64,000 bases of DNA from a bacterium (GTDB lineage: Bacteria > Bacillota > Clostridia > Lachnospirales > Lachnospiraceae). The stretch lies in the NCBI GenBank assembly GCA_023664305.1, contig JAMPFT010000007.1, forward strand, positions 62,001 through 126,000, in the 5' to 3' direction. Both the position numbers and the translations under genes were made by a program. Of the stretch, positions 29,583 to 57,745 are shown one piece after another. Under the pieces are notes generated by a model, which saw only the letters and a list, made by a program, of their open reading frames with translations, was not told the DNA's origin and did no database searches. The stretch's first letter is position 1; each line of letters starts with the position of its first letter.

Positions 29583-32012
29583 TCAATCTATCTTCAGAAT
29601 CAGCCCCAAAATTCTCCGGGCACAAATCTCCATCTCCTCACGGGTCAGGGCTCCTTTTTCCTTAGCCTCCAAAAGCCTCTTCGGGAAACCGCAGCCCATC
29701 TTCACGTCGTTTCCGGCCTTCGTCTCCTTGTAATGCTCGCTGTGCGCCCACCAGTCCGTAGTCACCATCCCGTCAAAGCCCCACTCGCCGCGGAGGATAT
29801 CCTCCAGCAGCTCACGGTTTTCGGAAGCCCTGCGGCCGTTGATGATGTTGTAGGAGGTCATAATGCTCCAGGGCTTCGCCTCCTTCACGATAATCTCAAA
29901 GCCCTTCAGGTAAATCTCCCGGATCGCGCGCTCGGACGCCCGCGAATCGCTTTCCACCCGGTTCGTCTCCTTATTGTTCAGGGCGAAATGCTTTACCGTC
30001 GCCGCCACATGATTACTCTGGATCCCGGTGACCATGGCTCCCGCCATCTTACCGGTCAGATAAGGATCCTCGGAATAATACTCAAAGTTTCTGCCGCAGA
30101 GAGGACTCCTGTGGATATTGACGGCGGGAGTCAGCCACGCGCCGATATTGTTCTCCTTCGCTTCCAGTCCCCCGGCAGCTCCCACTCGCTCTACCAGCTC
30201 CGGATTCCAGGTGCAGGCCAGCATGGTGGAGCAAGGCCAGGCCGTAGTACACACGCCGCACTGAGGCGCGATCCGCACGCCCGCAGGGCCATCCGCCGTC
30301 ATGATGTTGGGAACGCCGTAGTCCGGCAGATTGCCGTACCCAAAGGTATTCGCCACACCCGTGTTCGGCTGCCCTCCCAAAAGCTCCGCAAGCTCCTCGT
30401 CGGGCAGCTTTGCCACAAACTCCTTTAGGGCAATCCGTCCTTCCGCCACATCGATCAGCTGAGGCTTGTCGCTCCGGTTTCCCCAGAGACGGCGGCTGTC
30501 CCGATGCTTCACCACAGGTGTCATCCCGCTTGATTCCGCCGGGGACAGCTTCGACGCAAAGACGCTTGCATCCGTATCGACCGGCTCTCCCTGGGGAAGC
30601 TCCTCAAAGCTTCCGTCCGCCAGCATCCTTTTGCCAAGCTGCACGGGAACCATCTTCGGCGAAAGCTGCTTTGCCACCTCGTCCTCCGCCAGCGTCAGGA
30701 CATAATCCGTCTCCGCGGCGTCACGGACAGAGGTTCCCACAAAGAAACGGTACTCGCCCTTTTCCAGAACATAAGCCGATTTTGCAACCTTGCCCAGATC
30801 GTCGTAGGAAGCCATGTCGCTCACCGCAAAACGCATCGTAACCCGCTGTGTCTCTCCCGGCGCAAGCTCTCTTGTCTTGCAGAATGCCGCCAGCGCCCTG
30901 GCCGGTTTCCCAAGCTTTCCCTGGGGCGCGCTGTAGTATACCTGAACCACTTCTTTTCCCGCTCTTGTGCCGATATTGCAGACATCCGCAGTGACCAGAA
31001 TATCGTTCCCCTGCCGCTTTGCCTTCCTGTCGGAGACGGTAAACTCCGTGTAAGAAAGACCAAAGCCAAAGGGATAATTTACTTTCTCCGCCGCTCCGGG
31101 AACCGTCTCGAAATAACGGTAGCCCACATAGATATCGTCCGTATATTCCACATAATCCGCCGATTCATGGAAATTACAGGTGGACGGATAATCCTCCAGA
31201 CGTTTTGCAAAGGTATCCGACAGCTTTCCGCAGGGATTCCCCTGTCCGATCAGAAGCTCCGCAGCCGCCAGACCTCCTTCGATGCCGCCCTGCCAGGCCA
31301 TAAGCACCGATTGGATTCTGTCTTCGCCCGCGAACCAGTCCGTGTCTACCATGCCGCCTACATTCATCACTACGGCGACCTTCGGGAAGCGGCTCTTTAC
31401 GGCCTCTACCATAGCCTTTTCCGCATGGGTCAGATAAAAATCCCCGTCCTCAAAAAGCTCCGGCTCCTTGCCCTCGGACTCTTCCAGCCCCGCGATGACC
31501 ATATCGTCCTTCGGCTTCTTTTTGTCGTAGACGCTCTTTCGGTCCCAGCCCTCGCCGGAAAATCTGCAGATGCTGATCACCGCCGTGTCCGTGAACGCCC
31601 TCGCCTTTTTAAGCAGCTCCTCCGGCACCTTCGGCTCCACCGTCATGCCGGGCTGCCGTCCCGCGGCATACTGTTCCTTCACGTTTTTCCGGTAGTAGTC
31701 CGCAAGCTCCTCAAAGACCTCCACATGACCCTTCTTTTCCTGCAGACCATCGTACAGATTGCGGGTGTAGGCAACGGTTACATCCCCGCTTCCGCCGCCG
31801 CCCTTCACATAGTCGAAGGTCGCCTTGCCGAACAGCGCTACCCTGCTTCCCTTTTTTAACGGCAGCAGACCGCCTTCATTTTTCAGCAGCACCATACCCT
31901 CCTTCGCCGCATCCTTCGAAAGCGCGATATGCTCCCTGCTTCCCGTAATCCTCCTTCCGCCTTCCCCCAGAGGAAGAACCGGCTGATACTTTGCTCTGGC
32001 CCATCTTTCCAT
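29583..32012 (-). CDS. GH3 beta-glucosidase with permuted domain order
   Basis: The 809-residue cytoplasmic product (no signal peptide) begins with the GH3 C-terminal domain (EGMVLLKNEGGLLPLKKGSR, then VAVVMNVGGMVDTDWFAGED), continues with a fibronectin III-like domain, and ends with the GH3 TIM barrel, whose nucleophile Asp lies in GFDGMVTTDWWAHSEH; NIHRSPLCGRNFEYYSEDPY and TVKHFALNNKE are the classical substrate-site motifs. This swapped order is known in rumen and gut clostridial GH3 enzymes. It probably acts on oligosaccharides taken up by the cell. Confidence 0.93.
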   Translation of the reverse strand: MERWARAKYQPVLPLGEGGRRITGSREHIALSKDAAKEGMVLLKNEGGLLPLKKGSRVALFGKATFDYVKGGGGSGDVTVAYTRNLYDGLQEKKGHVEVFEELADYYRKNVKEQYAAGRQPGMTVEPKVPEELLKKARAFTDTAVISICRFSGEGWDRKSVYDKKKPKDDMVIAGLEESEGKEPELFEDGDFYLTHAEKAMVEAVKSRFPKVAVVMNVGGMVDTDWFAGEDRIQSVLMAWQGGIEGGLAAAELLIGQGNPCGKLSDTFAKRLEDYPSTCNFHESADYVEYTDDIYVGYRYFETVPGAAEKVNYPFGFGLSYTEFTVSDRKAKRQGNDILVTADVCNIGTRAGKEVVQVYYSAPQGKLGKPARALAAFCKTRELAPGETQRVTMRFAVSDMASYDDLGKVAKSAYVLEKGEYRFFVGTSVRDAAETDYVLTLAEDEVAKQLSPKMVPVQLGKRMLADGSFEELPQGEPVDTDASVFASKLSPAESSGMTPVVKHRDSRRLWGNRSDKPQLIDVAEGRIALKEFVAKLPDEELAELLGGQPNTGVANTFGYGNLPDYGVPNIMTADGPAGVRIAPQCGVCTTAWPCSTMLACTWNPELVERVGAAGGLEAKENNIGAWLTPAVNIHRSPLCGRNFEYYSEDPYLTGKMAGAMVTGIQSNHVAATVKHFALNNKETNRVESDSRASERAIREIYLKGFEIIVKEAKPWSIMTSYNIINGRRASENRELLEDILRGEWGFDGMVTTDWWAHSEHYKETKAGNDVKMGCGFPKRLLEAKEKGALTREEMEICARRILGLILKID

Positions 32013-32190
32013 ATTCGTTTTTCCCTTTCTGCGGGTTTCCTGCAGCTACTGCTTTCTGACAACGTCCTTTTGCCTGGCTTTTCCCGGACCCGCCGGTCTC
32101 CCATTCGTCAGGAGACATCCATCCTATCGTTTCTATTGTAATCGATTCTCCACACAATTTCAACAAATACCTGTCTTCTTCTATAACGAA

Positions 32191-32220
32191 AGTCCGCAAA
32201 ATCACAGGATTTTGCGGACT
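32191..32220 (-). terminator. Hairpin closing the RelA/SpoT operon
   Basis: AGTCCGCAAAATC and GATTTTGCGGACT are perfect 13-bp arms with a 4-base loop, 13 bp after the last gene's stop. On the minus strand TTTCG follows, a weak T-tract; on the plus strand an A-run and T-run are nearby, so it may be bidirectional. Confidence 0.6.
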
Positions 32221-32232
32221 AAAAAATTTATT

Positions 32233-32772
32233 TTACTGTTCTGTCTTTTGAAATTCAATTCCCATCTTAAAAGTCTCGATCAATAACTCCAGCGCCTGGG
32301 GGCTGCATTCCCGATATTTGAAATAATAAAGCAGGAAATCCAAATATTCATCAAATTTTTTCTGTCCTTCCGCACCGAGCGCGTAATTCACTCCTTCTAA
32401 CAAGCACTCGTTTATGACCAGAAATAAGGCAAACCGTTCATTTACAAAAATGTCAGGTTCCTCAATATCGTCATTTATAAACTGCAACGGTTTCCTGCGC
32501 AGTATCCAATAGGCAATATACGCAAATACCTTGTTGGTTCTTACATCCTCAATGTGATGAAATTGTTTCAGTCTCTCAATATCAGAATAATAATCCAATA
32601 TGGCATGAAACAATATCCTGTCGTTGCAGACTACGCTCCCTTTATAGGAAGCTTCCCGTAAAAACAGTTCGCACTGTTCCTGCAGAAAACGCATAAATTC
32701 ATCTACGGTATTATCCCCAATCTTTTCGATAAGGGACTGATATGTGTCCTTTTTTCCTTCCGTCATAATCAC
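32233..32772 (-). CDS. Hypothetical helical protein, third gene of RelA/SpoT operon
   Basis: The 179-residue product is mostly helical and acidic, with no membrane segment. A central patch FAYIAYWILRRKPLQFINDD followed by VNERFALFLVINECLLEG is the most distinctive part. No family is recognised. The start is GTG at 32772 (or ATG at 32766); it follows the second gene by one base, so it is translationally coupled. Base composition is AT-rich like its two partners and unlike the GH3 and nucleotidase neighbours. Given the alarmone-synthetase-like gene at the head, this could be the antitoxin or an effector (inference). Confidence 0.75.
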   Translation of the reverse strand: MIMTEGKKDTYQSLIEKIGDNTVDEFMRFLQEQCELFLREASYKGSVVCNDRILFHAILDYYSDIERLKQFHHIEDVRTNKVFAYIAYWILRRKPLQFINDDIEEPDIFVNERFALFLVINECLLEGVNYALGAEGQKKFDEYLDFLLYYFKYRECSPQALELLIETFKMGIEFQKTEQ

Positions 32773-32773
32773 C

Positions 32774-33013
32774 TTATCCCCTGCCTGTTACCCGGTAAAA
32801 ATCAGGAGTCTTATCTTTGTGATTCTCCATAATCATGTGCGCCAAAACCGAGGCCATAAAGATTCTGCTCCTGGCGGCGTAACCGGCAAGCAGCGAACCG
32901 GAAAATGCATATGCAGAGTTAGGCAGAGTGTCCCTTTCAATCTTACCCTCCTGCGCTTCCTGAATCAAAATCCTGCGGTGGGACTCTTTCAGATCTTCAT
33001 AATGTTTGTCCAT
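32774..33013 (-). CDS. Small hypothetical protein, second gene of RelA/SpoT operon
   Basis: The 79-residue product begins MDKHYEDLKESHRRILIQEA and contains an Ala/Ser-rich middle (AYAFSGSLLAGYAARSRIFM) that may be a helix lying in a groove or membrane. AGGAG overlaps the stop of the RelA/SpoT gene and lies seven bases before ATG 33013; the TTG at 33019 is less good. No family is recognised. Size and position fit a toxSAS antitoxin, but nothing proves it. Confidence 0.75.
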   Translation of the reverse strand: MDKHYEDLKESHRRILIQEAQEGKIERDTLPNSAYAFSGSLLAGYAARSRIFMASVLAHMIMENHKDKTPDFYRVTGRG

Positions 33014-33024
33014 ACCCAATCTCC

Positions 33025-33912
33025 TTATCGCCTCAAAATTTTTTTGTTGGCAATTGTCCTGGCATCCATCGATCCGGTTAATGTTTTTTCTTCATTGTCA
33101 GCTACCGGAGGTTTATTTCTTACAACGAAATCCGCGTACACGTCACCGCCAAATTCCCTGTCGCACCTGTCCCACAGCTCCTCGGACATCTGTAAACAGG
33201 TTGAGACAAGCTCGTCCGCCGCTGCCATTATCTGAGCCATGGTTGTAGTATACCTCAAGAGAAATTTATTATCCTTGCGATAAGGATATCTGACCTTATG
33301 ATCAAATTCACCGTATACTTCTTCTGCTATGGTTCTTACCTGAATCTCACAATAATGCCCCTTATACGCTATAATATAATGCTGGGATCGATATCCTTTA
33401 TTAGAATATTGCGTATGTATTTTATTATGAAAAACATCTCTGTCCCCATATCTTATATATGCTTCCGGTTCTTCCTTCATGTAATACCGGGAATCCTTTT
33501 CCACGCTGTCCTCGGCCTTAAATACGCTGCAAAGTACATCATGTACCTGCTCCCAGCCCTCCTTGGAAAGGACCAGAACCCGTATTCCAATCAGATCCCG
33601 GATAATCTCACAATAATTGTCCTTGCATATCTTTTCGTACTTATTATTGTCTTCGATACATTTTTTTCGTATGATCTTTTCTATCAGATGTTCCGGATTT
33701 TTGATCCGGCTTTCAATGGAATGACAGCTGCCTTTTAATTTAGTCTTTAATAATTCCAGGATGTCCTTTTGGGCGTCCTCAAGTTCCTGAATTTTTTGTT
33801 CCCCGAAATCATCATATATACTCTGAATCGTATCCCAGCTGATCAGCTCTTCCCTGTAAAAATCCCGTAGCCTATACTCTGTCAGAAACCTCTCTTTATC
33901 CAAGGTTTTCAT
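33025..33912 (-). CDS. RelA/SpoT-domain nucleotide pyrophosphokinase (toxSAS-like candidate)
   Basis: The 295-residue product carries a single alarmone-synthetase domain. Seen motifs: HSIESRIKNPEHLIEKIIRK (substrate loop), IIRDLIGIRVLVL (metal/nucleotide strand), NKGYRSQHYIIAY and CEIQVRTIAEEVYGEFDHKV (the EIQxRT...E..H block). An N-terminal helical extension (about 70 residues) and a C-terminal tail flank it; there is no HD hydrolase, TGS or ACT domain, so this is a small synthetase, not Rel. AGGAG lies six bases before ATG 33912. It heads a three-gene AT-rich operon with two unknown proteins, which is the layout of toxic small alarmone synthetases with antitoxins. A housekeeping (p)ppGpp synthetase remains possible. 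Confidence 0.88.
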   Translation of the reverse strand: MKTLDKERFLTEYRLRDFYREELISWDTIQSIYDDFGEQKIQELEDAQKDILELLKTKLKGSCHSIESRIKNPEHLIEKIIRKKCIEDNNKYEKICKDNYCEIIRDLIGIRVLVLSKEGWEQVHDVLCSVFKAEDSVEKDSRYYMKEEPEAYIRYGDRDVFHNKIHTQYSNKGYRSQHYIIAYKGHYCEIQVRTIAEEVYGEFDHKVRYPYRKDNKFLLRYTTTMAQIMAAADELVSTCLQMSEELWDRCDREFGGDVYADFVVRNKPPVADNEEKTLTGSMDARTIANKKILRR

Positions 33913-33976
33913 AATGTACTCCTCAATTTATCATTCTGTAATAAGGCGAACAGGCCACCTTTGTAGAGCAATGACA

Positions 33977-34005
33977 AGTATAGCATAATTCATTATGATT
34001 ATCAA
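33977..34005 (-). promoter_or_regulatory. Promoter of the RelA/SpoT operon
   Basis: TTGATA (34005-34000) and TATACT (33982-33977) are 17 bp apart on the minus strand, 65 bp upstream of the start codon. The spacer between 33913 and 34212 otherwise holds only AT-rich DNA and the start region of the divergent nucleotidase gene. Confidence 0.8.
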
Positions 34006-34212
34006 CCGGAATTTATTTTTGTTTTGATCACTCTTAATGTCAGTCTAACTGTTTTGCATATAAATAGCAAGCATAAAATAAATTTTCCCCTCTGATGAAG
34101 ACAGCCCGTCCCGCCGATATAAGATATGGTAAAGATTCGCCGAAGGTAAGGCCGGCCGTCGGAAATTGCTTTCGCCCGGCCTGACAACAGGCAATCAACA
34201 GCATTTCGCGAT

Positions 34213-36228
34213 ATGAAAAAGAAAGGTACGGTAACCCCTATGAAGCATTCCCTGAAACCCCTATTACGGCGCGCCGCCCTCGGCCTGACCGCGGCGCTTC
34301 TGCTCCTCGTTTCGATTTATCCGGCCGTTCAGGCGGCACAGCCTCCCGCGGATGCCGCGAGGTTAGACATTCTTTTTACCCACGATACCCATTCCCACCT
34401 TGACAGCTTTATCACGGTGGAAAACGGCGAGTCGGCCACGGTGGGCGGCTTTGCCCGGATCAAGACCCTGATCAATGAAGCCAAAGACAAAAATCCGGAT
34501 ACCTTCGTGCTGGACGCCGGGGACTTTTCCATGGGCACCCTGGTGCAAACCATATACGACAGCGAAGCCGCCGAGCTTCGCATGCTGGGGGCTTTGGGCT
34601 GCGACGTCACCACCCTGGGCAACCATGAATTTGACTACCGCTCCGCCGGGCTGGCGGGAACCCTTAACGCCGCCGCTGCCAGCGGGGAGCCCGTTCCCTC
34701 CCTCGTTCTCTGCAATATCGACTGGGAGACCATGGAAACCGAGGGCCTCACCGCAGAGCAGCAGCTGCTCCGGGACGCCTTTGACGCATACGGGATGCGG
34801 GACTACGTCGTCGTCACAAAGGGCGACATTAAAATTGCCGTTCTCGGCGTTTTCGGCATAGATTCGCTGGCCTGCGCCCCTACCTGTGTCCTGAAATTCC
34901 GGGACGCCTCGGAGGCTGCCGCGGAAACCGTGACACAGATCAAGGCCAACGAAACCGTTGACATGATCGTCTGCGTGTCCCACAGCGGCACGAGCGAGGA
35001 CGAAAAAAAGTCCGAGGATGAGATTCTGGCAAAGAACGTACCCGATATCGATCTGATCATCAGCGGCCACACCCACACGACGCTGGCGGAACCCATCCGC
35101 CACGGCAACACCTACATCGTCTCCTGCGGGGAATACGGTAAAAATCTTGGCTCCCTCTCCATGTCCCAAAGAGAAGACGGGCGCTGGGAGCTTACAGCCT
35201 ATTCCCTGATTCCCATCACTCCCGCCATCGCCGCCGATCAGCCCACACAGAAAAAGATCGACGGATTTATGGAGGCAGTGGACTCCTCCTATCTGGCCCG
35301 GTTCGGATACACCAGAAGCCGCATTTTGGCGCAAAACGACATTGTCTTTGCAACCGTGGACGATCTGTACACGGTTCATACGGATCACAATCTGGGCAAC
35401 CTTTTGTCCGACGCCTTCAAATACGCCGTCTCAAATGCCGAAACGGAAGACACAAACCCGGTTGCCGTGGCGATCGCGCCTTCCGGCTGTATCCGCGATA
35501 CCTTTGCCGCCGGCGATATCAGCGTGGAGGACGTCTTTAACGCCTACTCTCTGGGAATCGGTCTGGACGGCGTTGCGGGCTATCCCCTGATCAGCATTTA
35601 TCTCACAGGCGCGGAGCTGAAGACCGGCGCGGAAATCGACGCCTCCGTGTCGGACCTGATGACTACCGCAAGACTGTATACCTCGGGGCTGAATTTCTCT
35701 TTCAATCCCCACCGCATCATCCTCAACCGGATCACAGACTGTTACCTGACGGACGACGCCGGAAACCGCGTGGAAATCGAGGACGACAAGCTGTACCGCG
35801 TGGTCTGCGATCTCTACAGCGGCCAGATGCTGGGAGCAGTCACGGACGTATCCTACGGTATTTTATCCATTCAGCCCAAATTTGCGGACGGCTCTCCTAT
35901 TGAAAACATCGAGGACGCCATCATCACCGCCGACGGACAGGAAATAAAGGCGTGGGCAGCTATCGCGGGATTCTTGGAAACCTTCGAGGATACCGACGGC
36001 GACGGCATTCCCAACGTCCCCGCGCTCTACGGAAGTCTTCACGGCCGTAAGGTCGTAGAGGACAGCACAAGCCTGCCGGATCTGGTAAAGGGCCTCAACA
36101 AATACGCCGTCATCATCCTTCTGGCCGTATTGCTGGTTCTCGTTATCCTGATTCTGCTCATCGTGCTGATTGTAAAGTTGATCCGCAGGATATGGAAGAA
36201 GCGCTCCCGCAAGGCGGCAGACAAATAA
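34213..36228 (+). CDS. Cell-surface bifunctional 5'-nucleotidase / UshA-type metallophosphatase
   Basis: The 671-residue product has a signal peptide (hydrophobic LRRAALGLTAALLLLVSIYP), a metallophosphatase domain with DILFTHDTHSHLD, DAGDFSMGT, TLGNHEFDY and IISGHTHT metal motifs, and a 5'-nucleotidase C-terminal domain (VAIAPSGCIRDTF region). A final transmembrane helix (YAVIILLAVLLVLVILILLI) with a basic tail anchors it. It should release phosphate from nucleotides outside the cell. The start could be 34213 or the ATG nine codons later; neither has a strong site. Confidence 0.93.
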   Translation: MKKKGTVTPMKHSLKPLLRRAALGLTAALLLLVSIYPAVQAAQPPADAARLDILFTHDTHSHLDSFITVENGESATVGGFARIKTLINEAKDKNPDTFVLDAGDFSMGTLVQTIYDSEAAELRMLGALGCDVTTLGNHEFDYRSAGLAGTLNAAAASGEPVPSLVLCNIDWETMETEGLTAEQQLLRDAFDAYGMRDYVVVTKGDIKIAVLGVFGIDSLACAPTCVLKFRDASEAAAETVTQIKANETVDMIVCVSHSGTSEDEKKSEDEILAKNVPDIDLIISGHTHTTLAEPIRHGNTYIVSCGEYGKNLGSLSMSQREDGRWELTAYSLIPITPAIAADQPTQKKIDGFMEAVDSSYLARFGYTRSRILAQNDIVFATVDDLYTVHTDHNLGNLLSDAFKYAVSNAETEDTNPVAVAIAPSGCIRDTFAAGDISVEDVFNAYSLGIGLDGVAGYPLISIYLTGAELKTGAEIDASVSDLMTTARLYTSGLNFSFNPHRIILNRITDCYLTDDAGNRVEIEDDKLYRVVCDLYSGQMLGAVTDVSYGILSIQPKFADGSPIENIEDAIITADGQEIKAWAAIAGFLETFEDTDGDGIPNVPALYGSLHGRKVVEDSTSLPDLVKGLNKYAVIILLAVLLVLVILILLIVLIVKLIRRIWKKRSRKAADK

Positions 36229-36869: not shown

Positions 36870-39800
36870 TTATTCAGTGGCCTTTCTCTTAATCGTCTCG
36901 GTATTGTATTTGCCCATCAGCTCCGCGATCTTCTTCTGGTGCTTCTTCATGCTCTTCGTATAGCAGATCGCCACGATGAGCGCCGCCAGCATCAGCAGGA
37001 AATGCAGTATACAGCAGATATGGCCGTCGTGGAAATTAGCCAGAGGCGTCTCTTCCTCTTCGATGGGGATGATAATGACGTCTCCGTCCTCATTTTCATC
37101 GATCACTCCGCCGGGCGCCAGAGGCGCTGTCTCTTCCTCGATCTCAACCCCGGGGTCTGCAGGCGCTTCAGGCCCTCCTGCAGGCACGTTCGCCACTACG
37201 GGCACGATAACGGGTACAATCGGCGCGGGCTCCACGGGAGCAGGCGTTTCATCCGTCGGTTCGGGATCCGGCGTAGGAACCGGCGCGGGTCCCGGGACAA
37301 CCGCATTCAGCGTATAAACGACTGTCAGCTCTACATCTCGCGCGGGCATTCCGTTCTCACCCGGTCTCAAGAATGCATAGTTCGGTGTATATCCTCCGAT
37401 CGTCGGCGAATAAATTGCCTCAAGGTCATCTCCCGCCCGGAATGCTCTTCTGACGTCGGGCGCTGCCTGAACGCCGTTTGCGTATACATAATGGATCACC
37501 AGGCTGTAGATATTCTCCACGTTTACGGGATCCGTTTCCGTTACCTTGGGCTCGGGATTAATCGGTTCCGGCTTAACATCAGGCTTTTCGGGATCTACAG
37601 GTCCTGTGGGCTGCACGGGATCCACCGTCACTCTCACTCCGTTGACAATCGCGTTTCCTGCATCTGCCTCCTGAACCGTATACTCGCAAATCAGCGTAAA
37701 GGTTTCGCCGGGCTCCAGGGAATCTACCGTCACGGTGTTATCCTCATTCAGCGTATATCCCGCTGCCGCAAGGGCATCCGCATCCTCTGCGAGAATGCCG
37801 TTCAGCTCTGTAAATACCACCTGTCCCGCCGCATTCTGAAGCAAATCTGTAACCGTCACACCGTGAAGCGTCACATTCGCGTTGCTGCTTACGGTGATCT
37901 GGTATCTGATCACATCGTCCGTGTCATACTCATCCTGAGGATCCAGCACTACCTTGCTGACCGCGTAGTCCGTGCGGATCGGTTCTGTGCCAACCGTCAC
38001 TTCACCGGGAACTACGTCAGGATTCTCCGGCGCACCGTTCGGCGTATTCTCGGGCATCTTTCCTGTGACAGTCGCCCTGTTAAACACCTGACCCGCCTTG
38101 ATATCTTCCTCCGTCACGGTGTAGGTTACCTTATACTCCGCGGACTCGGTCTGCGGTGCGAGCGTTCCAACCTCGATGATGTCTCCGGTAAGTTCGTCCT
38201 TCACCACGATATCCGTCACGGTGACATTACCCGTATTCTTTACGGTGATGGTATAAACAATATCCTCGCCAAGCGCATATCCTCTGTCCGGACTGTCCGC
38301 CGTCTTCGTCACCGTGAGCTCGCCGTTCACCGTTGTGGACTGCGCCGTTGCCTCGGCCTGATACTCATGCCCCTTATAGGACGCCGTCACTTCATTCTTA
38401 AAGCTGCCTGCCTTAATGTCCGCTTCCGTGATGACATAGCTTGCCTTGATTGTCTCTTCTTCGCCTGCTCCCAGGTCGATATCAATGATCTCCTCGCCGC
38501 TGTTGCTGAAAAAGGCTGTTATGGCTCTCCAAATCCTTGTAAGCAGACCGGCATCGTTTACTCCCGTTTCGAAGGTCACGCCGGGAAGCTCTTTCAACGT
38601 TACGGTCACAGGCTCGTCGTAAATGTTCTTCACGGTAATGGTAAAGTTCACGGTCTGGCCGATCTGGTATTCGGACACATTTCCGTCTACGACTTTGGTC
38701 ACCACCAGGTCATCACTTACTTCGATAGGATCACCATTTTCATCTTTGGCGACATCCGTCACCTCCAGAACGCCTTCCTTGCGTTCAATTACATAGTTAG
38801 CGGTTACATCGACATTTTCCTTCGTCAAAATCTGTACATCGTATACATCGTCTCCAACGATGTTCGGGCCGGAGCCTACCAGAGTCTGGCTGCCGATGAT
38901 CTTCGCTTTCACATCCTGCTGGCTTACAAGGCCACGGTTTTCTTCTGCGTTGAACTCCTCAACGGTATACTCATTCGCCGTCAGCGCCTCGCCGGTATAA
39001 ATTCTGGTCGCCGACTTTGCGGTAATCGTAAGAGGGCGGGGCTTAATGGTCAGGAAACCGGAGACAGGCTTTACATTAAATTGATCCGTCACATCGTTTC
39101 CGGCCGCATCCCAAACTGTGTAATTTCCCTGTACAGGAATAGTTTCCTTGCTGTCCGTTACAATTGTTCCGCTGGCTTCCGAGGTCAGGCCTGTCACATA
39201 GTAATTTTGGCCGTCTTCCACTACGAGGATTCCCTTTTCAGGCGTTTCTGCCGTTCCGGTCGAAAAAGGTAATTCCTCCTCATTTTCAAACCCGCTTACG
39301 GTCTGCAACGTTCCGTCATAAAATGTTTCGAGTCTCTTCGCCGTTACCGTTACTTCACTTGCGTCGCGGTTGTTTACCGTCAGCGTTCCTTCTGATTTAA
39401 CAATTGTGTAGTTATCTTCCTTCGTATTCGCGTTCAGTTTATAGGTAAACTCGTTAGCGGAGAATCCCACCAAAGTCTGGGTGCCGGTAAAGGTATAGGT
39501 TGCGCCTTCTCCTGTCGCCCAGCCGTCCCCTGATACTATAATAGCCGCATCGCCGTTTGTCAGTGCCTTTCCGTCGTACTCTTTATCGAGGTTATCCGAA
39601 ATCAGCGTTACATGCCGCTTCTCAATCGTCAAATGTCCGGGAGTGATTGTAACGTTAAACTGAGCGGTCACATCGTTCCCTGCCGCATCCAGCACTGCGG
39701 GGGTTCCGGTCACAGAAATCTCTGCCACACTGTCCTCTACATTCTTACCGCTGGCTTCCGAGGTCAGACCTGTCACATAGTAGGTCTTGCCGTTTGCGGT

Positions 39801-42800
39801 TACGGGGATTCCCTTTACGGTCGTTCCGTCCGGCAGGGTTACATCGGCTTCCCCTTCTTTAAATCCGCTTACGGTTTTCGGCGTTCCGTCATAGGTATCC
39901 GTGAGGCTCTCTGCCGTCACCGTTACCTGATACAGATCAGTATCAGGACGGTTTCTTACCGTCAACGTTCCTTCCGTCTTTGTGATATCGTAGTTATCGG
40001 CATTCGTGCCATCCTTTAACGTATAGGTGAACGCGTTAGCGGACTCGCCCACTAAAGTCTGGGAGCCGGTAAACTCATAGTCCGCGCCATCCTCACCTAC
40101 CCAGCCGGTCTCTTCTGCAAGCGCCGTATCGCCGTTCGTCAGTTCCGATCCGTTGTATGCCTTGCTCAGAGTCGCCGAGGTCAACGTTACAGGCTGCTTT
40201 TTAATCGTCAAATATCCGGGCTCAACTGTAACATCAAACTGAGCGGTCACATCGTTCCCCTCTGCATCCTTCACTACCACAGCATCAGTTCCGGTCACTT
40301 CGGTTTTTCTGCCTACTACCACCTTAACAGTTTCACCGGTCTCTGTGGTTTCTTCTTTTACCACAACATCCTTACCGGTCGCTTTAGAGGTCAGACCCGT
40401 CACATAATAGGTTTTGGAAACGGTTTCACCGTTTATCTCTTCCTCTACCGTTACAGGGATTCCCTGCGCGGTTTCGCCTACAAACCCTTCTACCGTATGT
40501 TCCGTTCCGTCATAGGTCGGTTCAAGGCTGCTCGCCGTTACCGTTACCTGATACTTCTCGGTACGGTCGATTACTGTCAGCGTTCCTTCCGTCTTTGTGA
40601 TATCGTAGTTACCGGCCTTCGTATTGGCGTTCAATTTATAGCTGAACGCATTAGCGGACTCGCCCACCAAAGTCTGGGTTCCGGTGAAGGTATAGGTTGC
40701 GCCTTCTCCTTCTGCCCAACCGGTCTCTGTTGCAAGTTCTGTCTCGCCGTTTGTCAGCGCTGTTCCGTCGTATTCCTTTTCCAGAGTCGCCGAGGTCAGC
40801 GTTACCGCACGCTTGCTGATCGTCAGGGAGCCGGACTTCTTTGTAACCTCAAACTGATCGGTTACATCGTTCCCCGCTACATCCTTCACTACAGCGGTTC
40901 CGCTTATAACGGTATCCTTGCTGTCCGCCACATTCGTACCGCTGGCCTTGGAAGTCAAGCCTGTCACATAGTAGGTCAGGCTATAGGTTTTGCCGTCTAC
41001 CGTCGTCTCTACTACGACAGGGATTCCCTTTTCGGTCGTTCCGTTCGAGAATGTTACTTCCTCTTCTCCCTCAAACCCGTCTACGGTCTTCACTGTCCCG
41101 TCATAAGGTTCTGTATGGCTCTTCGCCTTTACCGTTACCTGATACTTCTCATTACGGTCGCTCACCGTCAATGTTCCCGGCTGCATAGTGATTTCGTAGT
41201 TATTCGCATCCGTACCCGTCTTCAGGGTATAGCTGAATGTGTTTTCGGAGCTGCCGACCAAGGTCTGGGTGCCGGTGAACGAGTAGGTTGCGCCTTCTCC
41301 TTTCACCCAGCCGTCCCCTGTTATGGCAATCGCGTTCCTGCCATTCGTCAGCGGCGTTCCGTCATACTCCTTGCTCAGAATCGCCGAAGTCAACGTTACG
41401 GTTCTCTTATTAATCGTCAAAGTTCCGGGAATGCCTGTAACCGTAAACTGTCCGGTCACATCTTTTCCGTTCTCATCAAACACCTGAGCGGTTCCGCCTA
41501 TAACGGTTTTCTTGCTGTCCGCCACGTTTGTACCGCTGGCCGTAGAAGTCAGACCCGTCACATAATAAGTTTTGGAAGTGGCTTGACCTTCTGCTGTTAC
41601 CTTTACGGGGATTGCAAGAATCGTCCTTTTATTTTCAGTACCTTCCCCAAGAGTTACTTCCTTTTCTTCCTCAAACCCGCTTACGGTCTGCACTGTTCCG
41701 TCATAGGTTGTTGTAAGGCTCTTTGCCGTTACCTGGATTCCTTTCAGTTCTTCTACCTGTACTACTACCGGCTCCGGCTCTTTCCCGGTAACCTCAATAG
41801 CTCCCGAGACGATCTTCGCCGTATTGCTGATTGCAGCGCCCGCATCCTGAACAGCTATCGTGTAATCATATGTAATAACCGCTTTTCCCTTCGCGCCGAT
41901 GCTCGCAATGGTAAACGTCTTTTCTGTTTCGTTCCATACCGCGCCGCTTACATTGCTGATCTCTCCCGCGCCGCTCAGAGTATCCTGCACCACTACATTT
42001 TTTAACTCTTTTGCTTCTGTATTCTTGACCGTAATGGTATAGTGAACCGTCTCTCCCACTGCAGCCCGGCTCGCATCAGACGTCTTGTCAAGCCCGACCT
42101 GGGACTTTCTGTACTTGAGGATCATCTTATTGGTCTGCAGTCCGAGCGAAATGCTTACGCCCTCTACGATTTTATCGCCGAGCAGCTCCACGCCCTCATA
42201 TACATAATTGTCAATATCCTTTTTATATTCGGCAACAGAAAGCACCTGTCCGAAAGCGCCAGTTTCCTCGACGGAGTCGGCTATTTTATTGCCGTCGCTG
42301 TCTACATATTCTACCGTGTAAAGCAGATTTGAAAGGTACTCCGAAAGATCAAGATATCCGTCTAAATGCCATGCGAGCGTTTCCCACCCTATATTAAAAT
42401 CGTTCGCTCCTTCGCTCGTCAGCAGGTTTTTCCACTCTATCTTCGCAATGTCAACCGTATCCTTCGGAAACGTACTAAAATACTCGATACTTCCAAGCGC
42501 ATTTATAACTGTATTAAAATGCTCCGTTTCGGTTAATGTTTTGCCCTTTTCCGTCGCTAAAGGGATGGCCGCCCTAACCTTTCCTACCGTAATCCAGCCA
42601 GCACCGTTCGTTTTCAGGCCCAGCGCCTTTAACGCCTCTGTATTCTTCATGGTAGCGGAATCCAGCTGCGCATACACATAAACCGTGCGTTCCTCCACCT
42701 GCTGCGCTGCACCCGTCACATTGACAAGATATTCTGTCCCACAGATATCAACCGTCGTCGTTCCTGCACTTTTGCCGGTTACTTTGAAGACATTGCCATA

Positions 42801-43307
42801 ACCGGTCCACTCTACGGTGGCAATCGCAAGATCATAGCTGCTATACTGCCCATTATGCCGATTCGAGCCTCCAGACCCCTTATCATGACTCGTATTTCGG
42901 CACCAAGCCCATGTAGAGCCTCCCACCACTAAATCTATCACATTCTCCTCCGCGTAAACGGAAGCAGTCTCCGCGCCGAAAGAATCCGCCGAAAGCATAG
43001 CGCTGCCCGCTTCCCGGACATTATCCGCCGAAGCCGCAGCATCCTCCGAAAGCTTCTCATCTTCCGAAACCGTGTTTTCCGCCGGAAGACCTTCCGTCAG
43101 CGCTCCGTCCTCCTCAGGCTCCCCGGGAATCACAATCACCTGTGTTTCCACCGTGTTCTGCGCATTGCCGCCGGACACCGTGCTGCCATCGGTAACCGCC
43201 CACAAAAGGCTGTCCGAAGACGAGTATACACATGCGGTTATCACAAGTGTTATCGTCAGCAGAAATGCAAGCGCTCTCTTTACTCTCTGCCAGTTTTTCT
43301 TTTTCAT
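36870..43307 (-). CDS. Giant MBG/DUF11 surface protein with C-terminal membrane anchor
   Basis: The 2145-residue product has a signal peptide (MKKKNWQRVKRALAFLLTIT and following). Next come an N-terminal region, a DUF11-type domain (about 405-500), about eight MBG-type repeats with YDGT and YYVTGLTS motifs (about 519-1510), and two to three DUF11 domains (about 1529-1890; VTVTDIVVKDELTG). A MucBP-like segment, a Pro/Val/Glu-rich linker and a transmembrane helix with basic tail close it. No LPxTG is visible; the end reads ETPLANF before the helix. ATG 43307 has AAAGGAG six bases upstream; the longer frame is a purine-rich non-coding leader. It is likely an adhesin. Confidence 0.9.
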   Translation of the reverse strand: MKKKNWQRVKRALAFLLTITLVITACVYSSSDSLLWAVTDGSTVSGGNAQNTVETQVIVIPGEPEEDGALTEGLPAENTVSEDEKLSEDAAASADNVREAGSAMLSADSFGAETASVYAEENVIDLVVGGSTWAWCRNTSHDKGSGGSNRHNGQYSSYDLAIATVEWTGYGNVFKVTGKSAGTTTVDICGTEYLVNVTGAAQQVEERTVYVYAQLDSATMKNTEALKALGLKTNGAGWITVGKVRAAIPLATEKGKTLTETEHFNTVINALGSIEYFSTFPKDTVDIAKIEWKNLLTSEGANDFNIGWETLAWHLDGYLDLSEYLSNLLYTVEYVDSDGNKIADSVEETGAFGQVLSVAEYKKDIDNYVYEGVELLGDKIVEGVSISLGLQTNKMILKYRKSQVGLDKTSDASRAAVGETVHYTITVKNTEAKELKNVVVQDTLSGAGEISNVSGAVWNETEKTFTIASIGAKGKAVITYDYTIAVQDAGAAISNTAKIVSGAIEVTGKEPEPVVVQVEELKGIQVTAKSLTTTYDGTVQTVSGFEEEKEVTLGEGTENKRTILAIPVKVTAEGQATSKTYYVTGLTSTASGTNVADSKKTVIGGTAQVFDENGKDVTGQFTVTGIPGTLTINKRTVTLTSAILSKEYDGTPLTNGRNAIAITGDGWVKGEGATYSFTGTQTLVGSSENTFSYTLKTGTDANNYEITMQPGTLTVSDRNEKYQVTVKAKSHTEPYDGTVKTVDGFEGEEEVTFSNGTTEKGIPVVVETTVDGKTYSLTYYVTGLTSKASGTNVADSKDTVISGTAVVKDVAGNDVTDQFEVTKKSGSLTISKRAVTLTSATLEKEYDGTALTNGETELATETGWAEGEGATYTFTGTQTLVGESANAFSYKLNANTKAGNYDITKTEGTLTVIDRTEKYQVTVTASSLEPTYDGTEHTVEGFVGETAQGIPVTVEEEINGETVSKTYYVTGLTSKATGKDVVVKEETTETGETVKVVVGRKTEVTGTDAVVVKDAEGNDVTAQFDVTVEPGYLTIKKQPVTLTSATLSKAYNGSELTNGDTALAEETGWVGEDGADYEFTGSQTLVGESANAFTYTLKDGTNADNYDITKTEGTLTVRNRPDTDLYQVTVTAESLTDTYDGTPKTVSGFKEGEADVTLPDGTTVKGIPVTANGKTYYVTGLTSEASGKNVEDSVAEISVTGTPAVLDAAGNDVTAQFNVTITPGHLTIEKRHVTLISDNLDKEYDGKALTNGDAAIIVSGDGWATGEGATYTFTGTQTLVGFSANEFTYKLNANTKEDNYTIVKSEGTLTVNNRDASEVTVTAKRLETFYDGTLQTVSGFENEEELPFSTGTAETPEKGILVVEDGQNYYVTGLTSEASGTIVTDSKETIPVQGNYTVWDAAGNDVTDQFNVKPVSGFLTIKPRPLTITAKSATRIYTGEALTANEYTVEEFNAEENRGLVSQQDVKAKIIGSQTLVGSGPNIVGDDVYDVQILTKENVDVTANYVIERKEGVLEVTDVAKDENGDPIEVSDDLVVTKVVDGNVSEYQIGQTVNFTITVKNIYDEPVTVTLKELPGVTFETGVNDAGLLTRIWRAITAFFSNSGEEIIDIDLGAGEEETIKASYVITEADIKAGSFKNEVTASYKGHEYQAEATAQSTTVNGELTVTKTADSPDRGYALGEDIVYTITVKNTGNVTVTDIVVKDELTGDIIEVGTLAPQTESAEYKVTYTVTEEDIKAGQVFNRATVTGKMPENTPNGAPENPDVVPGEVTVGTEPIRTDYAVSKVVLDPQDEYDTDDVIRYQITVSSNANVTLHGVTVTDLLQNAAGQVVFTELNGILAEDADALAAAGYTLNEDNTVTVDSLEPGETFTLICEYTVQEADAGNAIVNGVRVTVDPVQPTGPVDPEKPDVKPEPINPEPKVTETDPVNVENIYSLVIHYVYANGVQAAPDVRRAFRAGDDLEAIYSPTIGGYTPNYAFLRPGENGMPARDVELTVVYTLNAVVPGPAPVPTPDPEPTDETPAPVEPAPIVPVIVPVVANVPAGGPEAPADPGVEIEEETAPLAPGGVIDENEDGDVIIIPIEEEETPLANFHDGHICCILHFLLMLAALIVAICYTKSMKKHQKKIAELMGKYNTETIKRKATE
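38760..41760 (-). repeat. MBG-domain tandem repeats within the surface protein gene
   Basis: About eight units of 300-400 bp share gtcacatagtagg, accgttacctgata and ccgtcatagg-type blocks and encode YDGT, YYVTGLT, AGNDVT.QF and TLVG.SAN patterns. The DNA identity between several units suggests recombination-driven variation in length. Confidence 0.8.
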
Positions 43308-43309
43308 AC

Positions 43310-43500
43310 CTTTCTCCTTTTCTTTTTGGGATAAACCTTCTCCACCCCGTTCTTTTTCTTTTCCCGTTCTTTTTCTTTTCCCGTTCTTTTCGTTTCCGTT
43401 CTTTTTTCCGCTCTTTTTCTCTTTCCGTATGCTTTCTTTCCGTCCGTTTGTCTTTCCCCGCGCTTTTCCGTTCTTTTCTTTCGGAAAATTACGCCGTAAC
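43310..43500 (-). other. Purine-rich leader of the surface protein gene
   Basis: On the minus strand this stretch is almost entirely A and G, with imperfect repeats of AAGAACGGGAAAAGAAA. It can be read as a Lys/Gly/Asn/Glu-rich frame, but that has no signal peptide or ribosome site. It is most likely an untranslated leader. Similar purine-rich tracts precede other minus-strand genes (58500-58640, 62405-62525). Confidence 0.6.
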
Positions 43501-43611
43501 AGGTGTCGCAAAGGGACGTTTTTTTGCCGTTTCATATATAAAAGAGCGTTCAAATCAGAAAAATGGCTCAAAAAAAATTTAAAAAATTTAAAATTTTATG
43601 AAAACTGTAAT

Positions 43612-52961: not shown

Positions 52962-54572
52962 TCAAATACCGGCGTTCTGCGGGTTTACCGGAACGATCTT
53001 CCCTCCCGTAAACTCAAAGACGGCGTCCGCCAGCTCCTCGATGTCGCCGGGAATATGGCTTGTGAGCAAAATAAGCCGCTCCGGCGACTTCAGTTCGAAG
53101 AGCAGCCGCTTGATCTGCGCCGCGCCCTGTTTATCCAGACCGTTAAAGGGTTCGTCCAGGACAAGGATTTTCTGGTGCTCCATAATCGCCTGTGCTATCG
53201 CAAGCCGCTGGCGCATCCCGAGAGAAAAGTTCTTTACCTTTTCCCTGTTGGCGGGGTCCAGCCCGACCAGCTCCAGTGCGGCTCTTATTTCCTCATCCTT
53301 TATGATGCCCTTGATCTGCGCAAGATATCTTAAATTCTCAAGCTGTGTGTAATTCTCTATAAATCCGGGTTTTTCAATGAGGACGCCCAGCTCCGGCAAA
53401 AAATCGATATCCCTTCCGATCACTTTGCCGTCTAAAGCGACGGTTCCTCCGTCGGCCTTCAGGAAGCCGCAGATTATTTTAAAAAACACGGATTTTCCCG
53501 AACCGTTTGCTCCCGTAAATCCGTAGATATTGCCAAATTCCAGCTCCAGATTGATATCATCCAGAACCGTCCGCTTCTTAAATTTTTTCGTTAATCCGCT
53601 TATTTTTAACATGTAACCGCTCTCCCTTCTCTTTTCGGCGTATATACAATCATTTTTTCCTGCACGGCGAAGTGCTGCTCCGGTTTCCTGCCCGGCACTT
53701 TGCGGCAGACCGTGACCTCCTTTTCCCGCACGGCAGAGTATTTCCCCGGTTTCCTGCCCGGCGCTTTGCGGCAGACCGTGACCTCCTTTTCCCGCACGGC
53801 AGAGTATTTCCCCGGTTTCCTGCCCGGCGCTTTGCGGCAGACCGTGACCTTTCTTCCCCGCACGGCGAAGCGTCGGCCCACGCGACATCCGCCGGATTTC
53901 ACGGCAATAGAGCGCCGCCGCGGCCAAATCCGTGCCTGCCGTCAACAAAACTAAGGGGACTTCCGTAATCCGCTTTTTTGCGATAAAAAACTGCGCCGTT
54001 GACATAGCCAAAACCGGCGTCGGCAAAACGGTGTTGACGAGATAAAGCGCAATAATGCAGATCAGGCTGTGCTCCAACGCATAACAATTGTTCAGGATGA
54101 CGTAGATGACGACGATACCGAAAAAACCCAGACAGTCCATGAACAAATAAAAAAGAGTGGATGCCGCCTGTTCCGCATAAAATCCCGCGAAGCAGTAATA
54201 CACAATATGGGAAACCGCAAGGAGCGCTTCCCCCGACAGAAGGAGCACTGTCAAATGCGCATATAAAAATTTTCTGTAATCCGTGATCCGGGCGAGGAGA
54301 CAGGGCATGATATCGCCGGATAATTTGTCGGCTATCTTCCCTACCGTAAGGAAAACGGCCGAGATATTTAAAAGCTTTAACAGTACAGTGCTTAAACCGA
54401 ACTGATAAGTCTCGTTCCCGCCCTGCCAGAGAATCGTGCCGCTTTCTCTGCCGAGCTCGATCCCGGTAAAATTTGCATAGACAAAATCCAGGAAGACAAA
54501 AAGTAAAACGGAAAGAAGGAAATCTTTTCTAAACTCTCTGACAATTATTTTGAAAAGCTTACTCACTTTCAT
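52962..54572 (-). CDS. ABC permease fused in frame to an ABC ATPase by a tandem repeat
   Basis: The 536-residue frame starts with a 230-residue membrane part of six helices (FLLSVLLFVFLDFVYANFTG and others). A linker follows of three GHGLPQSAGQETGEILCRAG repeats, and then a 216-residue ATPase (GANGSGKSVFFKII Walker A; FSLGMRQRLAIAQAIMEHQK; ILVLDEPFNGLDK Walker B). The ATPase has its own ATG at 53612 with AGGGAGAG nine bases before, so it can be made separately. The linker looks like spacer DNA now read through. The cluster with two upstream permease genes resembles lantibiotic-immunity (LanFEG) or bacteriocin exporters. Confidence 0.85.
   Translation of the reverse strand: MKVSKLFKIIVREFRKDFLLSVLLFVFLDFVYANFTGIELGRESGTILWQGGNETYQFGLSTVLLKLLNISAVFLTVGKIADKLSGDIMPCLLARITDYRKFLYAHLTVLLLSGEALLAVSHIVYYCFAGFYAEQAASTLFYLFMDCLGFFGIVVIYVILNNCYALEHSLICIIALYLVNTVLPTPVLAMSTAQFFIAKKRITEVPLVLLTAGTDLAAAALYCREIRRMSRGPTLRRAGKKGHGLPQSAGQETGEILCRAGKGGHGLPQSAGQETGEILCRAGKGGHGLPQSAGQETGAALRRAGKNDCIYAEKRRESGYMLKISGLTKKFKKRTVLDDINLELEFGNIYGFTGANGSGKSVFFKIICGFLKADGGTVALDGKVIGRDIDFLPELGVLIEKPGFIENYTQLENLRYLAQIKGIIKDEEIRAALELVGLDPANREKVKNFSLGMRQRLAIAQAIMEHQKILVLDEPFNGLDKQGAAQIKRLLFELKSPERLILLTSHIPGDIEELADAVFEFTGGKIVPVNPQNAGI
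53649..53880 (-). repeat. 66-bp tandem repeat in the permease-ATPase junction
   Basis: Units begin at 53680, 53746 and 53812 with CCGGTTTCCTGCCCGGC and are almost identical; partial units flank them. The period of 66 bp keeps the reading frame, which is why permease and ATPase stay joined. It lies at the position where the stop of one gene and start of the next would be expected. Confidence 0.92.
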
Positions 54573-56228: not shown

Positions 56229-56386
56229 AAGTCCTTTGCGTTTTCCCTCTTTTCAAAAGAAATGATTTTAGAAAACTGTTTCCTGCTCTCATTTTACCAC
56301 AGACACAGGCGCGGCTTTCTTTCGTTTTTCTTTCAAGTTTCTGTCTTTTTTCTGTCGTTTTCCGGCGCTCGCCTGCACTGTCTTTG

Positions 56387-56447
56387 ATTCCCGCGAGCAA
56401 AATGTGTCCTTCAGACACATGGCCAAACGGCCATGCTTGCATGGACA
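56387..56447 (-). repeat. Dispersed 61-bp palindromic repeat, copy 2 (family A)
   Basis: It matches 16289-16349 with one mismatch, inverted. It lies about 160 bp upstream of the permease start at 56228. Immediately beyond it (56467-56533) stands a second hairpin structure. Confidence 0.9.
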
Positions 56448-56466
56448 ATTGGCGAATGCCGCGAGG

Positions 56467-56533
56467 GTCAAATACCCCGCCCCTTGGGGCGTTTCAAGCC
56501 TGATGCCCCGCTGCTTGCGGCGGGGTATTTGAC
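56467..56533. repeat. Perfect 15-bp inverted repeat adjacent to family A copy
   Basis: GTCAAATACCCCGCC (56467-56481) and GGCGGGGTATTTGAC (56519-56533) are exact reverse complements; between them GCCCCTTGGGGC is another small hairpin. The region 56229-56796 holds no gene, only these repeats, a terminator and AT-rich DNA. Confidence 0.9.
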
Positions 56534-56706
56534 TCTAATGCAAGTTCGTTGTCAAATTTGATTATATTGTTTTCTCCCTTCGGAAAGATGCTTCCACTGC
56601 TATTATTCCACTGCTATTATCAAAGAATTTAGTGTATATTTATAAAGATCTTAATTTTTTGCTCATTTTGAGTGACTGCATTTTAATTTCACTTACTGAA
56701 TATTGG

Positions 56707-56740
56707 AAAAAGGCTATCCGTTTGATTGGATAGCCTTTTT
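56707..56740. terminator. Bidirectional terminator after the PIN-domain pair
   Basis: AAAAAGGCTATCC and GGATAGCCTTTTT are perfect arms around an 8-base loop. On the minus strand it ends the PIN/companion operon. Confidence 0.85.
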
Positions 56741-56796
56741 CACTGTTTCAGCTTGATCAATTTTAATTGATTTGGTACGATTATGGGGAACACTTT

Positions 56797-57024
56797 TTAA
56801 AGAATAATTTTCGCATTACCTTTGTATGGATGACTATCAGCATAAGCAGATGCTTTCTCCATAAATTCATCCGTTTCCATTCTGTCATAATACTCCCTTT
56901 GCCATACAGTATAATCAAAATCATCTCTTTTAAGCATCGAAATAAAATACTCTGCATCAAGTACGCCCAACTTTTCAATAAGGCAGGCAATTCCCTGTTC
57001 CATTAACTGTGCTGTGTTCATCAT
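56797..57024 (-). CDS. Small companion of PIN-domain protein (antitoxin-like)
   Basis: The 75-residue acidic product starts MMNTAQLMEQGIACLIEKLG and includes AEYFISMLKRDDFDYTVWQR. It overlaps the PIN gene by 4 bp. Its size and position suit an antitoxin, although in PIN modules the antitoxin more often comes first. No family is recognised. Confidence 0.75.
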   Translation of the reverse strand: MMNTAQLMEQGIACLIEKLGVLDAEYFISMLKRDDFDYTVWQREYYDRMETDEFMEKASAYADSHPYKGNAKIIL

Positions 57025-57467
57025 AACTCATCCGCCTCCATTTTTCTTATAAACTCGCAGGGAGAAACCAACTGTATTTGTTCAGAACAATACTTTAACA
57101 ATCTGTCATCTGTAGTAATAAAATAATTGCACTCTGCCAAAATTGCACAAGCTACATGACAGGCATCCTTTACCTTAATGCCGGTTTCCATGATAGAACG
57201 TGCATTTCTTTCTACAATTTCTTTATCCTTATTTGTCACATAAACTGTGGCATTGGCATTCATAAAATTTTCAATGGCAAGTCTTTTTTGCATTGACCGA
57301 TTATTACTGTTTTCAAATTCCAGAACATAAGAGGTGACAAGTTCCAACTGCCCTCTTTTTACCGTATCCTGAATATAAAGTTTAGCTTGTGTTTCCAAAC
57401 TTATTCTAATCTGTGATTGATCATCATAAGGGCGATTATAACAACAATTATCCAAATAGATTCTCAC
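57021..57467 (-). CDS. PIN-domain ribonuclease-like protein
   Basis: The 148-residue product shows a PIN fold: the first Asp in RIYLDNCCYNRPYDD, a middle acidic region VLEFENSNNRSM, and the late IKVKDACHVACAILAECNYF plus ITTDDRLLKY motifs carrying Asp residues for metal. The start is GTG at 57467, with AAGAGG nine bases before. PIN toxins cut RNA. Paired with the small downstream protein. Confidence 0.88.
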   Translation of the reverse strand: MRIYLDNCCYNRPYDDQSQIRISLETQAKLYIQDTVKRGQLELVTSYVLEFENSNNRSMQKRLAIENFMNANATVYVTNKDKEIVERNARSIMETGIKVKDACHVACAILAECNYFITTDDRLLKYCSEQIQLVSPCEFIRKMEADEL

Positions 57468-57517
57468 ATCTATATCCTCTTAACTTCCGGTTTACCTTCA
57501 TAAATCTTAACATTTTT

Positions 57518-57546
57518 ATCATACTATATTTTTCTGCTTGCATCAA
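57518..57546 (-). promoter_or_regulatory. Promoter of the PIN-domain pair
   Basis: TTGATG (57546-57541) and TATGAT (57523-57518) are 17 bp apart, 51 bp upstream of the GTG start. Confidence 0.7.
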
Positions 57547-57619
57547 GGTATGGAAAAAACATTTATTCACAAAAATGCGGATATACGCAATTTTATTTCA
57601 AGTATATATTCTGCCCTTA

Positions 57620-57735
57620 TGTTAAACAAAATCTGCCCTCCCTTGCAGGATCTCTCAAAGACAAAGCAAGGGCAGGGCAGATTCCTTTTGAGATCGGGAA
57701 CTCCGCTTCCGCAAGGCAGACTCTGCCCTTACAAT
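57620..57735 (-). terminator. Hairpin-rich end of the MBL-fold gene
   Basis: ATCTGCCCTCCCTTGC and GCAAGGGCAGGGCAGAT (both on the plus strand) pair over about 55 bases; on the minus strand TTTTGTTT follows the second arm. GGCAGACTCTGCC forms a second small hairpin. The first is a plausible terminator for the MBL gene. Confidence 0.65.
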
Positions 57736-57745
57736 TCAGTACGCC

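Follow-up and report, generated by a model that had tools for sequence, protein, structure and literature searches.

An inserted operon of a RelA/SpoT-type synthetase and two conserved partner proteins as a candidate effector-control cassette in Lachnospiraceae

The three-gene operon and its insertion site

We analyzed a stretch of 64,000 nucleotides from the genome of a gut bacterium of the Lachnospiraceae (assembly GCA_023664305.1, contig JAMPFT010000007.1, positions 62,001 to 126,000; hereafter the window, whose numbering is used throughout), in which a small RelA/SpoT-type synthetase and two small proteins are encoded by a three-gene operon on the minus strand. In the order A-B-C, these genes are: A (33025..33912), encoding the synthetase and candidate effector, a 295 amino acid protein with an ATG start; B (32774..33013), encoding a 79 amino acid protein with a loose LPN motif, the candidate adaptor to the effector; and C, encoding a helical protein, the putative constant core of the module, of either 179 (32233..32772, GTG start) or 177 amino acids (32233..32766, ATG start). 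A preliminary description of this DNA, made from its letters alone, had proposed an operon with two unknown partner proteins, and this operon is real according to both gene calls and substitution rates. Comparison with the nearest relative, locus L034 (loci and genomes are designated by L and G numbers), gave dN/dS values of 0.126/1.11 for A, 0.156/1.03 for B and 0.093/1.13 for C, that is, strong purifying selection on the three genes alike, which identifies B as a real gene.

Protein A matches the RelA_SpoT domain above the cut-off (PF04607, E = 1.4e-17), carries the catalytic signatures named in the preliminary description, and matches phrog_2211, a PHROGs family of unknown function (3.1e-22). 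In an alignment of 82 A proteins (those of at least 240 amino acids from the 81 loci described below plus 19 others, some loci being identical), residues K71, K79, D106, G109, R111, Y174, H178, E189, Q191 and H205 are invariant (82/82), and R69 and T194 are kept in 81 of the 82 rows. The active site is intact on this alignment. For B and C, no match above the cut-off was obtained in Pfam (best E = 0.13 and 0.095, respectively), NCBIfam or PADLOC, and no match in PHROGs; in PADLOC, none of the three window proteins has a match at E ≤ 1. Among their relatives, the A protein of L024 weakly matches the candidate system PDC-S33 (1.9e-4), and two proteins labeled "X" match PADLOC models at 0.015 and 0.056. 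A search of Rfam gave no match within 31500-34500.

The operon lies within an inserted segment of approximately 1846 bp (32223..34068, ends sure to a few bases), which holds A, B, C and a promoter-like site. In the close relative G727 (L208), whose flanking proteins share 93% identity in one case and 84% in the other, the sequence joins position 32223 to 34069, sure to a few bases, with nothing between; because it is continuous across both ends, the window holds an insert. The GC content of this segment is 40.2%, against 57% in the two flanking genes and 51.4% in the window, in line with the AT-richness that had been reported for the region. Both flanking genes are kept as divergent neighbors on one contig in 12 other genomes, none of which carries the cassette there (0/12), and the gap between the flanking-gene matches is only 175-424 bp in 10 of these 12. 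Another gene lies between the flanking genes in G727 (1686 bp) and another in G721 (~2.6 kb), so the site may be an insertion hot spot. By eye, the gene in G727 is kinase-like (L208, 385-1701) and that in G721 chemoreceptor-like (L219, 566-2353).

The closest cassette, L034 (identical to L132 of G744, a genome of the same genus), stands at a different genomic place with 79% DNA identity, and the homology spans 32228-34020, stopping within ~50 bp of the insert ends. The promoter-like site (TTGATA-17-TATACT with TG ahead of the -10; 33977..34005, minus strand) lies inside the insert and falls in this alignable stretch. The promoter ascribed earlier to the operon is present as a site, one that is weak when taken alone, as the region holds 11 promoter-like sites where 5.7 would be expected. 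The hairpin thought to close the operon (13-bp stem, 32191..32220, minus strand) is likewise real and lies just outside the insert; because the same hairpin occurs in the empty site of G727, it belongs to the flank and pre-existed there. Terminator-like sites number 2, against 1.9 expected. A 13-nucleotide inverted pair (32223-32235 and 34074-34086) was considered as a transposon end and rejected, its right arm being present in the empty site as well. Counting the genome of the window and some fragments, C occurs in 13/101 genomes of the genus, 14/299 of the family, 5/391 of the class and 2/398 of the phylum, a patchy spread such as mobile accessory systems show.

Conservation of the trio and exchange of its effector

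When an 84,980-species collection was scanned with a C alignment, 108 relatives emerged; the 80 that scored best, together with one more from a viral scan, make up the 81 loci analyzed, so that the counts describe the best-scoring part. These loci were found by C alone, and an A of at least 240 amino acids lies near C in 63 of them, A being short or split in 4 and absent in 14. The neighborhood survey suggested as a check in the preliminary description thus finds the trio conserved together, and far beyond chance. The four short or split copies of A comprise L095 and L103, which lie at contig edges, as well as L106 and L107, where A is split while B and C stay open; L066 also starts at a contig edge, and an absent or short A at L066, L095 and L103 means little. 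At a lenient cut-off (E ≤ 0.05), a B-profile match is found in 76/81 C loci. Taking the most upstream starts, A is separated from B by a median of 12 nt, and B overlaps C (median -13 nt). The usual order is A-B-C, with B-A-C in L023 (identical to L111), L024 and L113, and B-C-A in L138, where B is assigned by position only; L019/L086 show a fusion of C with part of B. Across 61 loci, the distance matrices are correlated (r = 0.87 for A-C, 0.80 for A-B and 0.89 for B-C; each p = 0.001, the minimum reachable with 999 permutations), indicating that A, B and C diverge jointly, shared ancestry accounting for part of this.

The B-C pair is not bound to A, as other candidate effectors adjoin it elsewhere. 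In 8 of the 81 loci (L061, L081, L084, L085, L092, L098, L099 and L110), A is replaced by an intact protein of 163-181 amino acids with 3-4 hydrophobic segments. Those of L061, L092, L098 and L110 are interrelated, that of L083 is related to L085, and the rest have no detectable relation; in L083 and L097 such a membrane-type gene is seemingly broken. The membrane-type pattern recurs in another family of the phylum (L236), with a recombinase-like gene behind it. Divergent C relatives from the window's own genus and class adjoin further kinds of partner: a TIR/SEFIR protein in L140 (PF13676, 1.2e-15), a distant second RelA_SpoT lineage in L141 and L143, and small membrane-type proteins in L144, L146 and L147, of which that of L146 weakly matches SLATT_5 (0.0073); the small genes of these divergent loci have no B-profile match. 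In an Atopobiaceae metagenome-assembled genome (MAG; L088, 6605-7746), B-C lies behind an AbiH fragment (PF14253, 1e-11) that occupies the place of A, with a Panacea gene divergently upstream (PF13274, 7.2e-14). As a separate observation, the gene behind the TIR-type locus (L140, 3444-4814) encodes a 456 amino acid protein that carries a metalloprotease-like motif, HEMIH, and matches no Pfam family at E ≤ 0.01.

The pair also occurs without a recognized effector. B-C stands alone in L104 and L114; no effector was recognized beside it in the viral contigs L114, L116 and L117, nor on an Azospirillum plasmid (L115), where B is assigned by position only and C has 26% identity. In L116, B-C is preceded upstream by a 7TM gene that is also found in L118, where C is a fragment only. 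On the C tree, six partner labels (one being "none recognised") need 14 changes, the least possible being 5, and L138, with an A-type partner, is sister at 100/89 to L235, whose partner, a 111 amino acid protein, shows a single hydrophobic stretch on visual inspection; several branches of divergent loci are long and their placement is unsure.

Relatives of A were in turn sought in 299 genomes of the family: 36 match at E ≤ 1e-5, and 23 of these, including that of the window, reach E ≤ 1e-20. Of the 23 strong matches, ten adjoin C; for the other 13 (L007-L015, L018 and L020-L022), the flanking sequence, up to 1.5 kb, contains no match to C. The solitary enzymes belong to the same bacterial family with ~34-42% identity, and form one clade (100/100) inside the cassette enzymes in an unrooted tree. 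The partner may have been lost by this clade or gained by the others, and in either case the two groups offer a natural comparison. Wider relatives of A occur in Fusobacteriaceae, in Firmicutes including Geobacillus, and in alpha- and beta-proteobacteria.

Properties of proteins C and B

The structural model of C superposes best on Doc, and C is likely to have a Doc-like fold. Membership of the Fic/Doc family, which this model suggests, was rejected upon motif and sequence tests: the Fic motif HxFx(D/E)(G/A)N(G/K)R is present in 0/80 C proteins, hhalign against Doc/Fic proteins of related genomes gave only 0.1-0.2%, and Fic is missing from the Pfam families matched by 48 members, as judged from 25 of the 29 families. 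PDB profile searches with C alignments gave no match at E ≤ 10; a viral fold library gave none for C at E ≤ 0.001. A CxxC motif is found in 9/80 C proteins and in 1/76 B proteins. C does contain a cluster of conserved residues, which suggests a putative binding site. Searches of phage and plasmid collections returned C relatives from a single plasmid only. A Streptococcaceae MAG (L085, 1306-2418) has two copies of C arranged head to tail within a single open frame of 370 amino acids, a hint that C may act as a dimer.

The protein in the B place changes with the effector. In all 9 membrane-type loci examined by hydropathy scan, it carries an N-terminal hydrophobic helix, which is present in only 1/69 other B proteins (E < 1e-4). 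It should be mentioned that the gene in the B place of L081, L083 and L099 has no B-profile match and is B by position only, which leaves 6 of these 9 proteins assigned to B by their sequence.

Relation to known systems and possible roles of the B-C pair

The preliminary description had put forward the cassette as a toxSAS-type toxin-antitoxin (TA) or phage-defense candidate. In common with the toxSAS enzymes FaRel2, PhRel, PhRel2, CapRel and FaRel, A is a RelA/SpoT enzyme with a single, stand-alone SYNTH domain and complete catalytic residues, encoded in a conserved small operon with partner genes. A direct toxSAS assignment was nevertheless rejected, since the folds closest to A are RelQ and RelP rather than those of the FaRel2/PhRel/CapRel branch; in addition, B and C match no model, and B-C relatives adjoin other effectors. 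The domains of known toxSAS antitoxins are of the pZFD/PAD1, Tis1-like or hydrolase kinds according to PMC11782079, which also places the faRel gene of C. marina between two antitoxin genes. Profile searches of B and C in Pfam, NCBIfam and PADLOC found none of the known antitoxin kinds (pZFD/PAD1, Panacea, Tis1-like or SAH hydrolase; the pZFD and Tis1 folds were not directly compared) above a cut-off. Thus, with solitary relatives of A also on record, toxSAS membership is unsupported, while the operon stands and a reading of the TA or defense type is kept. The fold and catalytic motifs of A resemble those of RelQ and RelP; unlike these, A belongs to a mobile operon with B-C and scores 22.4 bits against a cut-off of 320 for the NCBIfam model of YjbM (RelQ), NF053588. 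The spread of A relatives also fits the fpRel group of small alarmone synthetases (Atkinson 2011; spread as given in PMC3153485), a lead that comes from distribution alone.

A second comparison concerns Panacea (SocA/DUF4065), described in PMC8832971 and PMC10440598 as one antitoxin domain associated with many unrelated toxins, including toxSAS, Fic/Doc and membrane disruptors. The B-C pair similarly behaves as a constant partner with several candidate effectors, with the difference that here the constant part consists of two proteins of unannotated families, and that what occupies the B place varies from one effector to another. According to PMC10440598, NetFlax collects two-gene modules. No paper describing this cassette or the B and C families was found in the literature covered, which excludes subscription papers.

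Taken together, B-C resembles a reusable control switch, probably one of the TA or phage-defense type. Its relatives accompany a synthetase, membrane proteins and a TIR protein, which makes it unlikely that the pair serves alarmone metabolism as such and gives it the look of a control part. The explanation that we favor, which falls slightly short of an even chance, is that B-C serves as an exchangeable module of control, keeping under restraint an effector that arrests growth. The cassette would then be a horizontally moving effector-control unit in which A, a small-alarmone-synthetase-type enzyme able to halt growth through synthesis of (p)ppGpp or (pp)pApp or through tRNA pyrophosphorylation, is held in check jointly by B and C. 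B would act as an effector-matched adaptor, while C, the conserved core, would hold B and respond to the trigger. A disturbance of this control, for which phage infection is the likeliest cause, would release A and arrest the cell; the harm done by free A, its restraint by B-C, the phage trigger and the product are inferences. General traits of type II-like TA systems are present, namely compact co-directional genes, patchy horizontal spread and partner exchange.

Several observations weigh against this explanation. The fold of A is nearest that of RelQ and RelP, and its solitary relatives, which have no B-C nearby, imply that this family of enzymes lacks intrinsic toxicity. Decay has affected the entire locus in L029 and L139, where neither A nor C is intact; since loci with an intact A and a broken C would escape a search based on C, the two split copies of A in L106 and L107 prove little. 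The TIR case and the AbiH fragment are single loci each, L104 ends 259 bases past C, so that an A may lie behind C there, and the small gene of the divergent loci L138, L140, L141, L143, L144 and L235 has no B-profile match. A single-chain model of A and B predicted the A part well and the B part at pLDDT 44-67, and no interface is claimed from it. Finally, no clear signal of a defense island was seen among 130 scanned neighbor genes (138 were listed, and 8 belonging to membrane-type modules were left out), a scan that had no control set. PADLOC gave 61 families for these neighbors, and among the 25 shown none occurs in more than 4 of the 130 (RmrA, mads, capH, HTH, one GajB-like helicase and others); Pfam gave mostly metabolic, transport and regulatory families, with AAA-ATPase_like in 6 and PDDEXK_9 in 5.

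It could instead be that B-C is an activating sensor: A would stay inactive and be switched on once C, together with B, encounters a signal of phage or stress, in the manner of CBASS-like and other defense systems built from a sensor and an effector. Interchangeable effectors on one constant partner are also typical of such defense, solitary relatives of A are tolerated, and the conserved residue cluster of C suggests a binding site. A pure activator would hardly be expected to occur as a pair without a recognized effector (L114, L117 and perhaps L104, L115 and L116), however, and the split A beside open B and C in L106 and L107 also speaks against one; we consider this explanation doubtful while taking it seriously. 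The phage pairs without a recognized effector, these two split copies and the patchy spread favor an antitoxin-like part over a pure activator, and do not amount to proof.

A could also be a RelQ/RelP-type stress synthetase, accessory and non-toxic, for which two regulators tune (p)ppGpp in ordinary physiology and which is mobile only by chance; this would agree with the fold of A. We regard it as improbable, because the cassette is patchy, of low GC content and inserted as a unit, because C relatives also lie beside proteins other than alarmone synthetases, namely membrane proteins and a TIR protein, and because A falls far under the YjbM (RelQ) cut-off. The Doc-like model of C raises another explanation, in which C is an active enzyme with a remodeled Fic-type pocket that modifies and silences A in a type VII-like manner, B being a regulatory peptide as in Phd-Doc or FicA-FicT. 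In the operons of both these systems the small gene stands ahead of the Doc or Fic gene, and in the cassette a small gene likewise precedes the Doc-like gene. Unlike Doc and Fic, C has neither the Fic motif nor a sequence relation to them, and the candidate effector of the cassette is carried by a third gene; taking this into account, such an enzyme seems very improbable. By eye, the cassettes of L024 (105-1016; turned, with A on the plus strand) and L029 (62-1249) lie behind an apparent elongation factor Tu (EF-Tu) gene. PMC8832971 reports that Doc acts on EF-Tu.

Returning to restraint of an effector by B-C, a broader form of this explanation can be proposed tentatively, as a possibility with appreciably less than an even chance: B-C may be a new two-protein, effector-independent control platform, with C as universal core and perhaps trigger sensor, and B as swappable adaptor. 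It would serve at least four effector kinds (two RelA/SpoT synthetase lineages, membrane proteins of 3-4 segments, small membrane or coiled-coil proteins, and TIR), and the effector-free phage pairs would perhaps silence such systems. If so, a RelQ/RelP-like synthetase under a previously undescribed bipartite control pair would add to the toxSAS story, and the pair would represent, beside Panacea, a second way of placing many toxins under one controller. The B-C signature could then guide the identification of new effectors through adjacency, and the effector-free phage pairs would be candidate anti-defense genes. Comparing the cassette A with its solitary relatives would offer a direct test of what makes an alarmone synthetase a toxin.

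Elsewhere in the window, three further features were observed. A 2233 amino acid open frame at 36870-43571 encodes, by eye, a repeat-rich protein of the surface type. At 52962-54572, a linker containing three repeats that are nearly identical (GHGLPQSAGQETG) connects an ABC-transporter-like ATPase with a membrane part. The stretch at 56229-57745 is AT-rich (about 35-41% GC) and has no open frame of at least 150 amino acids.
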